64,000 bases of DNA from Mesorhizobium sp. CA14 (GTDB lineage: Bacteria > Pseudomonadota > Alphaproteobacteria > Rhizobiales > Rhizobiaceae), in NCBI RefSeq assembly GCF_020165195.1, contig NZ_JAIUHR010000005.1:1-64000 (forward strand). The letters run 5' to 3'. Shown piece by piece: positions 35,244-38,454 of the stretch. Each line of letters opens with the position of its first letter. The stretch's first letter is position 1. The position numbers and the translations under genes are program-made. The notes below the pieces were generated by a model, which saw only the letters and a program-made list of their open reading frames with translations, was not told the origin of the DNA and ran no database searches.

Positions 35244-36530
35244 TCAAATCCTGTCACGCAACGCGAACCAGTTGAGCGCAAGAAACAAGAGCGGCGCGCG
35301 GAATCGGCGGCCGCCGGGGAAGGCGGGGATTTTCAGATCCTCGATGAGTTCCAGCCGGTCGCGGTTGCCGGCAACGGTCTCGGCATAGAGCTTGCCGAAG
35401 AAGTTCGACAGTATGACGCCGTGGCCGGAATAGCCGCCTATCGAAATCACCTTCGGCATCACCTCGCGCACGAACGGCTTTCTCGGCACCGTGATGCCGA
35501 CATAGCCGCCCCAGCCATGCGTGATCTCGATATCCTTCAGGTCCGGGTAGAGCTCGGCGATTTGCCTGCGGATGTGGATATGGATGTCCTTCGGGTCGTT
35601 GACGGCATAGACCTCGCGGCCGCCGAACAGGAGCCGTCCGTCTTTCGACTTGCGGAAATAGCGCACCACGAAGCGGGAATCGTCGACAGACTCGCCGCCC
35701 GGCAGCACTTTGGAGGCCGCGCCGAGCGGCACGGTCGCACCGATGAAGGAACCGATGGGCATGATGTGCGCCGCGCTCACCGGCTCCAGATTGCCGCCAT
35801 AGGCATTGACCCCGATCAGGCATCTGTCGGCCGTGATCGTGCCTTTGGGCGTCGTGACCGTCACCTTGCCGCCATTGGACACGATGCCGGTGGAGGGCGT
35901 CTGCTCGAAGAGATGCGCGCCGGCGGCGGCCGCCACTTTCGCCGTGCCGATCACCAGCTTCAGCGGGTGGATGTGGCCAGTGCCGGTGTCGCGGGTGCCG
36001 CCGAAATAGCGCGTCGAGCCCAGCCGTTCCGCCGTCTCCGCCGCGTCCATGAAGCTTATATGCGGGTATCCGAAGCGGCTCGCCATGATCTCGGCGTGGC
36101 GCCTGTAGTCGTCGACGTAGCGCCGCTTGTGCGCGACCGAAAGCTGACCCGGCATATAGTCGATGTCGATTGCATTGGCGGCGGCGAAGTCGAACAGATG
36201 CGCCTTGGCTTCTTCGGCCATGTCGAACAGCGCCTTGGCGCGGGAGAGGCCGTACTCGGCCTCCAATTCTTCCGCCCAGGCGCGCTGCCCGGTGCCGAGC
36301 TGGCCGCCATTGCGCCCCGAAGCGCCGTCGCCGAAACGATGGGCTTCGATGAGGACGACATTTGCGCCTGTCTTCGCCAAGTGCGCGGCTGCCGACAAGC
36401 CAGTGAAGCCGCCGCCAATAATGACGACGTCACATTGGCGATCACCATCTAGCGAAGGGTATTCGGGTCGAGGCCCGGCCGTGTCTTCGTACCACGAACG
36501 GCCGGGAGAGATGGGGGATTGGTAGGGCAT
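35244..36530 (-). CDS. FAD-dependent oxidoreductase, gamma-glutamylputrescine oxidase (PuuB)-like
   Basis: The protein has 428 residues of the DAO family. The FAD-binding loop is CDVVIIGGGFTGLSAAAHLAKTGANVVLIEA, and the flavin region GASGRNGGQLGTGQ follows. The C-terminal block ISIGGYSGHGVILSNFFGKLYAE closes the fold. PuuB/OrdL enzymes oxidise gamma-glutamylputrescine. The glutamine synthetase-like gene upstream and the polyamine transporter at 45.8-49.9 kb support that use. Its start is only a few bases from an 8-bp repeat array that reads CCCTACT on this strand, so no purine-rich ribosome binding site is visible. Confidence 0.85.
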   Translation of the reverse strand: MPYQSPISPGRSWYEDTAGPRPEYPSLDGDRQCDVVIIGGGFTGLSAAAHLAKTGANVVLIEAHRFGDGASGRNGGQLGTGQRAWAEELEAEYGLSRAKALFDMAEEAKAHLFDFAAANAIDIDYMPGQLSVAHKRRYVDDYRRHAEIMASRFGYPHISFMDAAETAERLGSTRYFGGTRDTGTGHIHPLKLVIGTAKVAAAAGAHLFEQTPSTGIVSNGGKVTVTTPKGTITADRCLIGVNAYGGNLEPVSAAHIMPIGSFIGATVPLGAASKVLPGGESVDDSRFVVRYFRKSKDGRLLFGGREVYAVNDPKDIHIHIRRQIAELYPDLKDIEITHGWGGYVGITVPRKPFVREVMPKVISIGGYSGHGVILSNFFGKLYAETVAGNRDRLELIEDLKIPAFPGGRRFRAPLLFLALNWFALRDRI

Positions 36531-36540
36531 GATGCTCGGG

Positions 36541-36604
36541 AGTAGGGGAGTAGGGGAGTAGGGGAGTAGGGCAGTAGGGCAGTAGGGCAGTAGGGCAGTA
36601 GGGC
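36541..36604. repeat. Tandem array, eight copies of an 8-bp unit (AGTAGGGG x3, AGTAGGGC x5)
   Basis: Read on the + strand, the eight perfect units run without a gap. They lie between the four-helix-bundle stop codon (36607-36609) and the FAD oxidoreductase start (36530). The switch from G to C at the eighth base occurs once, so the array has two homogenised blocks. Confidence 0.97.
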
Positions 36605-36606
36605 AG

Positions 36607-36972
36607 CTATTCGGGTGACAATTTACGGATCAGAAGCCGCAAGAGTGTTCCCACGCTCTCACTACGTGTCATCAATTGTTGGGCTGCTTCGCTGGACGTG
36701 ATTCCGACGCGCTGTGCGATCAGTAAGTGAGTTTCCAACTCTTTGAGTGATCCCTGGGCAATTCTAAGAAACTGTTGATAGGAGGCCCGACTTTCTCGTC
36801 CATAGCCCTCAGCAATATTGGCGGGTACGGACGCGGCCGCCCTGCGTAGCTGGGTTGTCAATCCATAGAGCTCTTCTTTCGGCCACGCTCTTGTCGTTTC
36901 GTAAATCAAAACTGCGAGGTCCATCGCCTGCTGCCCGGAGACTAAATCTCTGTACGATTCGATCTTCGCCAT
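36607..36972 (-). CDS. Four-helix-bundle protein (23S rRNA intervening-sequence / S23 family)
   Basis: The protein has 121 residues, the family size. Motifs are YRDLVSGQQAMDLAVLIYETT, FGLT-like LYGLTTQLRRAAASVPANIAEGYGRESRASYQQFLRIAQGSLKELETHLLIAQRVG and a C-terminal helix. This matches proteins first seen inside 23S rRNA intervening sequences and related to the Avd accessory protein of diversity-generating retroelements. The molecular role is unknown; pentameric nucleic-acid binding is known for Avd. Its ribosome binding site, AGGGGG just before the ATG at 36972, is formed by the flanking repeat itself. Confidence 0.88.
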   Translation of the reverse strand: MAKIESYRDLVSGQQAMDLAVLIYETTRAWPKEELYGLTTQLRRAAASVPANIAEGYGRESRASYQQFLRIAQGSLKELETHLLIAQRVGITSSEAAQQLMTRSESVGTLLRLLIRKLSPE

Positions 36973-37020
36973 CGCCCCCTACTGCCCTACTGCCTTACTC
37001 CCTTACTCCCTACTCCCCTA
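36973..37020. repeat. Degenerate inverted copy of the 8-bp array
   Basis: On the minus strand this reads GTAGGGG, AGTAGGG, AGTAAGGG, AGTAAGGC, AGTAGGGC, AGTAGGGGG. Units vary in base 5 and one is a base short, unlike the clean array at 36541-36604. It runs from the glutamine synthetase stop codon to the start of the four-helix-bundle gene and is inverted relative to the other array. Confidence 0.92.
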
Positions 37021-38454
37021 CACGTTGAGCAGCAGATACTCCCGCTCCCACGGGCTGATCACTTCCATGAAGGTCTCGAACTCGGCGCGCTTGATCGCGG
37101 TGTAGGTGGCGGCGAAGGATTTGCCGAGGATGGCCCCGAGTTCCTTGTCGTCCTCGAACAGGCCTACGGCCTCCAGAAGCCCGCGCGGCAGGTCGATCTC
37201 ATCCGCGTTGGCGGTCGTCAGGACCGGCGGTTCCGCCTTGATCTTCTTGTTTATGCCGACCAGCCCGCAGGCAAGCGACGCCGCCAGCGCCAGGTAGGGG
37301 TTGGCGTCGGAGGAGGGGATGCGGTTTTCGACGCGTCGCGCCGCCGGATCCGAGCGCGGCACACGGAAGGCGGTGGTGCGGTTGTCATAGCCCCATTTGT
37401 TGTTGACAGGCGCCGACGCCTGCTGGGTCAGCCGGCGGTAGGAATTGACGTAGGGCGCGAACATCACCAGCGCGTTCGGCACATGCTTCTGCATGCCGCC
37501 GATAAAATGGAAGAACGCGTCGGTCTCCGAGCCGTCCTCGGCCGAAAAGATGTTTTTGCCGGTCTTCTTGTCGATCACCGACTGGTGGATGTGCATGGCC
37601 GAGCCCGGCTGCCCCTGGATCGGCTTGGCCATGAAGGTGGCGTAGATCTCGTGCTTCAGCGCCGCCTCGCGGATGGTGCGCTTGAACATGAAGACCTGGT
37701 CGGCGAGCTCGATCGGATTGCCGTGGCGCAGATTGATCTCGAGCTGGCCGGCGCCCTCCTCATGGATCAGCGTGTCGATCTCCAGGCCCTGCCGTTCCGA
37801 GAAGTGGTAGATATCGTCGATCAGTTCGTCGAATTCGTTGACGCCGGCAATAGAGTAGCCGGCGCCGCCGCCGATCGGCCGGCCCGAACGCCCGACGGGC
37901 GGCGTCAGCGGATAGTCCGGATCGGGGTTCTTGCGCACCAGATAGAATTCGATCTCGGGCGCCACCACCGGCTTCAGCCCGCGCTCGTCATAGGCCGCGA
38001 GCACGCGCTTCAGCACGTTGCGCGGCGTGAACTCGACCGAGCGGCCGTCCTGGTGAACGAGATCGCAGATCACCGCAGCCGTCGGGTCCTCTTCCCAGGG
38101 CACGACGGTCAGCGTCGAAAGATCGGGCAGAAGCTTCAGGTCGCCGTCGTCCTCGGGATAGTGGAACCCGTTGCCGTCCTCGGGATAGCCGCCGGAGATC
38201 GTCGTCATGAAGACGGCCGAAGGCAGCGCCAGCGAGGTGTTGGAGGTGAATTTCTTCGACGGCATCATCTTGCCGCGGGCGACGCCCGCCTGGTCGGGCG
38301 TGATGCACTCGATGTCCTCGATACCGCGCCATTCGAGCCAGGCGCTGGCTTCCTTCCAGTTCTTCACACCGCGTTGGTTCTTCAGAAAGGCAGGCGTGCG
38401 GGCGCGTCCCCCCCGGCTCGACGGACGGACTTCCTTTTTTTCAGGCGGCATCAT
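37018..38454 (-). CDS. Glutamine synthetase family protein, gamma-glutamylpolyamine synthetase (PuuA)-like
   Basis: The protein has 478 residues. Glutamine synthetase metal and substrate motifs are present: VAPEIEFYLV, HEEGAGQLEINLRHGNPIELAD, GSAMHIHQS, and NRIPSSDANPYLALAASLACG. It lacks the typical GlnB-controlled adenylylation tail sequence and resembles GlnT/PuuA-type enzymes that glutamylate amines. With the FAD oxidoreductase downstream it would start putrescine breakdown. The two genes are interrupted by the repeat cassette. The first 25 residues are basic and poorly conserved-looking. Confidence 0.88.
   Translation of the reverse strand: MMPPEKKEVRPSSRGGRARTPAFLKNQRGVKNWKEASAWLEWRGIEDIECITPDQAGVARGKMMPSKKFTSNTSLALPSAVFMTTISGGYPEDGNGFHYPEDDGDLKLLPDLSTLTVVPWEEDPTAAVICDLVHQDGRSVEFTPRNVLKRVLAAYDERGLKPVVAPEIEFYLVRKNPDPDYPLTPPVGRSGRPIGGGAGYSIAGVNEFDELIDDIYHFSERQGLEIDTLIHEEGAGQLEINLRHGNPIELADQVFMFKRTIREAALKHEIYATFMAKPIQGQPGSAMHIHQSVIDKKTGKNIFSAEDGSETDAFFHFIGGMQKHVPNALVMFAPYVNSYRRLTQQASAPVNNKWGYDNRTTAFRVPRSDPAARRVENRIPSSDANPYLALAASLACGLVGINKKIKAEPPVLTTANADEIDLPRGLLEAVGLFEDDKELGAILGKSFAATYTAIKRAEFETFMEVISPWEREYLLLNV

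Follow-up and report, generated by a model that had tools for sequence, protein, structure and literature searches.

The stretch of DNA analysed here (the window) comprises 64,000 nucleotides of Mesorhizobium sp. CA14 (contig NZ_JAIUHR010000005.1, positions 1 to 64,000), and at 36541-37021 it carries a small cassette in which an S23/IVP gene (PF05635) is enclosed by inverted arrays of the unit AGTAGGG[G/C]. We think it fairly probable that this cassette is one member of a multi-phylum family of small elements, each an S23/IVP gene set within locus-specific inverted arrays of 7-8-nucleotide units; such elements would likely be selfish and rarely mobile, and would reside in transcribed gaps, with an RNA predicted to form a long hairpin carrying S23 in its loop. 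The features of the locus, with open reading frames (ORFs) taken from a list of those of at least 80 amino acids, are as follows.

35244..36530, minus strand: FAD-dependent (DAO) oxidoreductase gene, the downstream host gene, codirectional with S23 (ORF and profile match)
36541..36606, no strand assigned: array 3' of the S23 ORF; the plus strand reads AGTAGGGG three times and then AGTAGGGC five times
36607..36972, minus strand: S23/IVP (four-helix-bundle) gene of 121 amino acids (ORF list and profile matches)
36976..37021, no strand assigned: array 5' of the S23 ORF, made of inverted, degenerate unit copies within which lie the likely ribosome binding site and the stop of the glutamine synthetase gene
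37018..37020, minus strand: TAG stop of the glutamine synthetase gene, within the right array
37018..38454, minus strand: glutamine synthetase family gene, the upstream host gene, codirectional with S23 (ORF and profile match)

The first-pass annotation had described a perfect array on the left and a degenerate, oppositely oriented one on the right, around a single S23-type ORF, and this anatomy is confirmed: the left array (36541-36606) holds 8.2 copies of period 8 with 98% matches, its units ending in G on the outer side and in C on the inner side, while the right array (36976-37021) holds 5.9 copies with 84% matches in the opposite orientation. All 4 occurrences of AGTAGGGG in the window fall inside the cassette arrays, whereas shuffled windows average 0.46 and none of 100 reached 4. 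The encoded protein matches PF05635 with 119 bits (cut-off 33.8), as well as NF008911 and TIGR02436, and the purine-rich stretch AGTAGGGGGCGATG ahead of its ATG could, judging by its letters, be the ribosome binding site. We considered and rejected an identity as an array of clustered regularly interspaced short palindromic repeats (CRISPR), as the cassette units stand head to tail, without unique spacers between them.

That arrays and S23 gene form a recurring unit, as was also proposed at the outset, is borne out in the same genome, in the genus and in other phyla. A second PF05635 copy (L001) lies on another contig of the same genome, between inverted GCGAATAG/GAGTAGC-type arrays. Genome-wide, AGTAGGGNAGTAGGG gave 24 matches at 8 places (reversed control, 0), and CGAATAGCGAATAG, with at most one mismatch, gave 32 (control, 0). 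Besides the cassette, the 7 AGTAGGG places are six ORF-less inverted array pairs around a short spacer and one place cut by a contig end. CGAATAG is found at 11 more places: both arms are present at nine, one arm is decayed at L390, and L387 is probably a chance match. The genome thereby holds two unit families, each comprising a single S23-bearing copy and several that lack the ORF, and the terminal inverted repeats of the ORF-less hairpins are common to the S23-bearing element, as in non-autonomous elements resembling miniature inverted-repeat transposable elements. The term "non-autonomous", first applied to the cassette as a whole, suits these ORF-less relatives and fits the S23-bearing form less well. 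The decayed CGAATAG element L390 (G000:C51:5650-6050) neighbours what we take, from its resemblance, to be a 5S rRNA gene. At L062 and L063, the spacer between AGTAGGGG arms keeps remnants of arms built from different units (CATTCGC, TATTCAC), a picture that replacement of one element by another, or entry of one into another, would give. Across the genus, PF05635 is present in 118 of 146 genomes and the triple AGTAGGG unit in 114 of 146 (reversed pattern, 0); arrays occur in 99 of the 118 congeners with S23 versus 15 of the 28 lacking it, a comparison uncorrected for relatedness.

Beyond the genus, arms were scored by matching the two flanks of an S23 ORF in inverted orientation and taking the highest value, relative to shuffled sequence (99% level) and to the flanks of other loci. 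Arms above the shuffle level were found at 41 of 42 congener loci (mainly the 30 best S23 scores), at 32 of the 54 that came from other genera in the same phylum, where 2.4% of cross-locus flank controls passed, and at 57 of the 78 usable loci of a named multi-phylum scan, where 3.4% did. The named scan took the best 80 of 588 confirmed loci, found by one conserved motif, of which L204 and L231 fell out for insufficient length; titles among its members include Bacteroidetes, Acidobacteria, Nitrospira, Clostridia and KSB1; L173 was dropped for want of an S23 match. Since sampling proceeded from the best scores, these rates apply to well-conserved S23 genes. Some arrays overlap the end of the S23 ORF. 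The arms of three Xanthomonas loci (L192, L200, L216) consist of GGGAATC, and among plasmids, for which 8 of 36 matching records were read (seven of them cyanobacterial), the arm score was at least 14 in 6 of 8, a figure without a shuffle control of its own. Nostoc and Calothrix plasmid loci display inverted GGGAGTA and GGGTGTA arrays; the suspected likeness to cyanobacterial repeats thus holds, several of the seven cyanobacterial plasmid loci having inverted G-rich arrays (L344, L346).

The unit itself varies from locus to locus yet agrees on both arms, and the fixed GTAGGG-type unit first envisaged is not supported. Among 55 junction representatives, 40 were periodic, with period 7 in 35 and period 8 in 5; upstream arms contain 37% G and 11% C, and a stop trinucleotide is present in 47 of the 55. 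Heptamer alignment yielded at most a weak TGAGTAG-like pattern, the excess of which is unsafe (80 starts in the real set versus 15 per shuffled set, 12 sets). Between junctions, arm similarity tracks S23 similarity (Mantel r 0.103, a value reached in 69 of 5000 permutations; after removal of GC content, partial r 0.11, reached in 12 of 1000); this test used one representative per junction, a first version being dominated by two orthologous sets. Unit and gene have also been found together at different junctions: L001 and the nuoC-nuoD copy of another genome (L134) have an identical unit and S23 proteins 76% identical, and the tree node uniting them is starred, a node that also contains the truncated row L172. 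Array lengths are free to vary between species.

At the 18 recurrent upstream-neighbour clusters, the upstream neighbour lies on the S23 strand in 98 of 102 loci; of the four exceptions, two reflect spurious ORFs called within rRNA. At 35 of 49 junctions with a codirectional neighbour, the stop of that neighbour falls at -15 to +60 from the arm start; the partner genes are many and different. In the predicted fold of the cassette RNA, the arms pair over their full length (-203 kcal/mol, z -6.8), a pairing that also covers the likely S23 ribosome binding site, and eight ORF-less elements (six from the same genome, two from congeners) have predicted folds with z from -3.5 to -8.5.

The history of the glutamine synthetase-oxidoreductase junction could be followed in 70 of the 144 genomes that gave a match. 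Nineteen are empty, 14 carry S23, 30 carry an ORF-less element and 7 were unclassified; to the eye, two of the latter seem to be empty (G058) and S23-bearing (G070), the others being cut by a contig end or lacking the anchor. Among the 14 S23-bearing junctions, G118 is truncated and G026 internally deleted. The comparison suggested by the first-pass annotation thus revealed empty sites in some relatives, and its own counter-scenario, the same cassette at the same place in all relatives with no copies elsewhere, is contradicted by the varied junction states and by the other copies. The S23 forms at this junction have AGTAGGG arrays and the ORF-less elements have three other unit types. Mapped onto a downstream-gene tree of 63 genomes, the states require at least 28 changes, on a weak tree in which 22 of 60 inner branches are open; in each of four starred pairs, the two sisters are in different states (G000/G128, G009/G053, G117/G026 and G109/G010). 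A separate observation concerns "empty" sites of G128, G102, G106, G039 and G084, near array-bearing species, which retain TAGGGCA, about one unit; this residue could be either a footprint of excision or the original seed. At an acyl-CoA dehydrogenase-HIBADH junction (names read from translations), inspection by eye of the 30 genomes listed showed 20 empty, 8 with S23 and 1 ORF-less, and in 1 the junction was not found. At the L001 junction, 8 of 30 genomes have S23 and 22 an ORF-less element. By eye, five ORF-less forms (G118, G079, G004, G125 and G128) retain a GAATAGC-type 3' arm with short leader- and tail-like remnants, which suggests internal deletion.

Copies within rRNA tie the S23-array family to the classical 23S intervening sequences. 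One genome harbours two S23 copies with identical flanks (L165 and L166) within rRNA, the arms of which match, in addition to two S23 copies with other flanks. For L165, which was scanned with cmscan, the insert lies at position 1218 of the large-subunit model, in a terminal hairpin loop that we take to be that of helix 45. Like the 23S intervening sequences of Coxiella and Leptospira, the window cassette is an S23-family ORF within complementary ends, for which a stem is predicted; unlike them, it sits between two protein genes and not within a 23S rRNA gene. Passages of a Coxiella study (PMC4990558) place the intervening sequence in helix 45, with GACAGAT heptamers 5' of the S23 ORF, whereas the window cassette has inverted arrays at both ends. 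The Coxiella ORF is judged expendable in the same passages (PMC4990558), whereas the S23 family of the window cassette is under purifying selection, with medians of 0.066-0.186 for the ratio of nonsynonymous to synonymous substitution rates (dN/dS).

Our best reading is thus of a widespread hairpin element of operon gaps, akin to intervening sequences and without description as one class in the papers searched. Spread is suggested by patchy presence, by unit families with several ORF-less copies and by unit and gene recurring together at different junctions. Copying has to be a rare event, since neither target duplication nor near-identical S23 proteins at clearly different junctions were seen. 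Mobility accordingly looks old or rare. In such an element, a conserved gene would be carried in the loop of a hairpin and the whole would sit harmlessly in transcribed gaps, the hairpin perhaps neutralising the insertion for the host transcript, by analogy with the RNase III-cut stem of 23S intervening sequences. As for the S23 protein, basic and Avd-like, it would bind its own array hairpin, and might help the element to copy itself or to keep its arms matched. ORF-less hairpins would then be deletion derivatives.

Several observations weigh against this reading. At the L001 junction, none of the 30 genomes read is empty, which indicates old occupancy. Target-site duplication, for which a test was suggested at the outset, was not seen by eye at the compared junctions, where filled and empty flanks differ. 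No recent copying was seen among armed loci in pairs not labelled as one junction: the highest S23 identity is 84%, for L180 and L181, which have a flank cluster in common, and the next is 76%. Junction states could also be carried from species to species by homologous recombination. Mirroring of unit variants in register, assessed in 17 parsed elements, is marginal (25 of 1000 shuffles as high), and in a set of 13 orthologous elements lacking the ORF, changes on both sides affected only 2 of 29 pairs, with a slightly unfavourable covariation term. The other counter-scenario of the first-pass annotation, homologues without such arrays, is borne out in part: no arms above the shuffle level were found at 22 of 54 loci in other genera of the phylum and 21 of 78 in the named scan; the remaining loci are armed. 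Cross-locus pairs pass at 13.6% once congeners are included, because congeners have units in common. Two plasmid loci depart from the common layout: in Pseudanabaena galeata (L348), S23 at 698-1057 is flanked by long GCTAAAA-type arrays in direct orientation, and in Nostoc edaphicum (L344), the S23 element is flanked by two ribonucleotide reductase genes, to which it runs antisense.

Much of the same evidence could be accommodated by a module that serves the host, in which the array hairpins between operon genes would stabilise mRNA or direct its processing, with S23 as a host RNA chaperone for them and without any selfish spread. Purifying selection on S23, the long-standing occupancy of several junctions, the adjacency of arrays to the stop of a codirectional neighbour and the stability of the predicted hairpins would all be expected of such a module. 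It is harder to reconcile with a distribution in the genus that is patchy (118 of 146), with relatives whose junctions are empty, with the different units and ORF loss at one and the same junction, and with partner genes so many and so different; we therefore regard host service as unlikely, though it deserves more weight than the alternatives that follow.

The relation of S23 to Avd, the accessory protein of diversity-generating retroelements, was rightly noted in the first-pass annotation as far as structure goes: the S23 protein shares the Avd fold, at a sequence identity of about 10%. From this likeness one might suppose an Avd-like accessory that recruits a reverse transcriptase in trans, with arrays arising from repeated copying of a short template. 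Unlike in diversity-generating retroelements, the neighbours of the window S23 gene (glutamine synthetase and DAO oxidoreductase) are not reverse transcriptases, and no association across genomes was found: in 397 genomes (two draws with identical settings, taken as one set), a reverse transcriptase is present in 21 of 62 with S23 versus 124 of 335 without (Fisher p 0.67), and seven S23-bearing congeners in this sample have none at all. Dependence of S23 on a reverse transcriptase in trans is thus not supported, and we hold the retroelement accessory to be improbable. Ordinary slippage-prone repeats lying beside an S23 gene by chance would explain why array length varies so freely among species, and are nonetheless highly improbable: most of the S23 loci examined, in whatever phylum, have inverted arms that match, versus 2.4-3.4% of cross-locus controls, and the reversed pattern is found 0 times in the genus.

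There is also a bolder proposal, which we advance tentatively and would place somewhat short of an even chance: S23/IVP genes across bacteria may define a class of mobile element that has so far gone unrecognised, with ends formed by two inverted heptamer arrays that are rewritten in concert, in place of any fixed sequence, whose members or relics include the 23S intervening sequences and the G-rich heptamers of Xanthomonas and cyanobacteria, and whose S23 protein would read or rebuild the array hairpin in a manner unlike any known transposase. Earlier descriptions have treated S23 genes, 23S intervening sequences and G-rich heptamer repeats separately. A single element class, if real, would (i) account for the frequent inverted pairing of such repeats, (ii) provide S23 proteins with a candidate substrate, namely their own arrays, and (iii) render the old idea of mobile intervening sequences testable by ordinary bacterial genetics.

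Short tandemly repeated repetitive sequences (STRRs) of cyanobacteria are known as single arrays. They resemble S23 arms in being short, G-rich and tandem; the Nostoc and Calothrix plasmid S23 arrays, by contrast, are inverted. Rehm et al. (2015) describe GGGAATC and GGGGA(C/T)T heptamer repeats in Xanthomonas and Nostoc; two Xanthomonas genomes have 70 and 75 inverted pairs, and Nostoc only a few. They read the arrays as G-quadruplex repeats and find no general association with mobile elements (PMC4692102). These repeats are likewise of period 7 and G-rich, and GGGAATC is the very unit used at Xanthomonas S23 loci; the terms "S23", "four helix" and "intervening" are absent from the main text of that paper (PMC4692102). 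In MacGregor (2015), TAACTGA repeats are treated, with the suggestion that the mobile element might be a repeat-binding protein (PMC4679880). Among the open-licence PMC papers searched, preprints excluded, no link of S23 genes to inverted heptamer arrays was found.

A further observation concerns cyanobacterial plasmids, in which S23 genes lie within CRISPR operons of Anabaena sp. 90 (L345), Pseudanabaena galeata (L348) and Picosynechococcus PCC 7003 (L351), either in a cas6-cas4 gap or in a cas10-cmr3-family gap. The abbreviation "23S rRNA IVP" appears in the legend of a CRISPR-association figure in Altae-Tran et al. (2023; PMC10910872). S23 genes inside such cas operons may explain the listing of S23/IVP among CRISPR-associated proteins.
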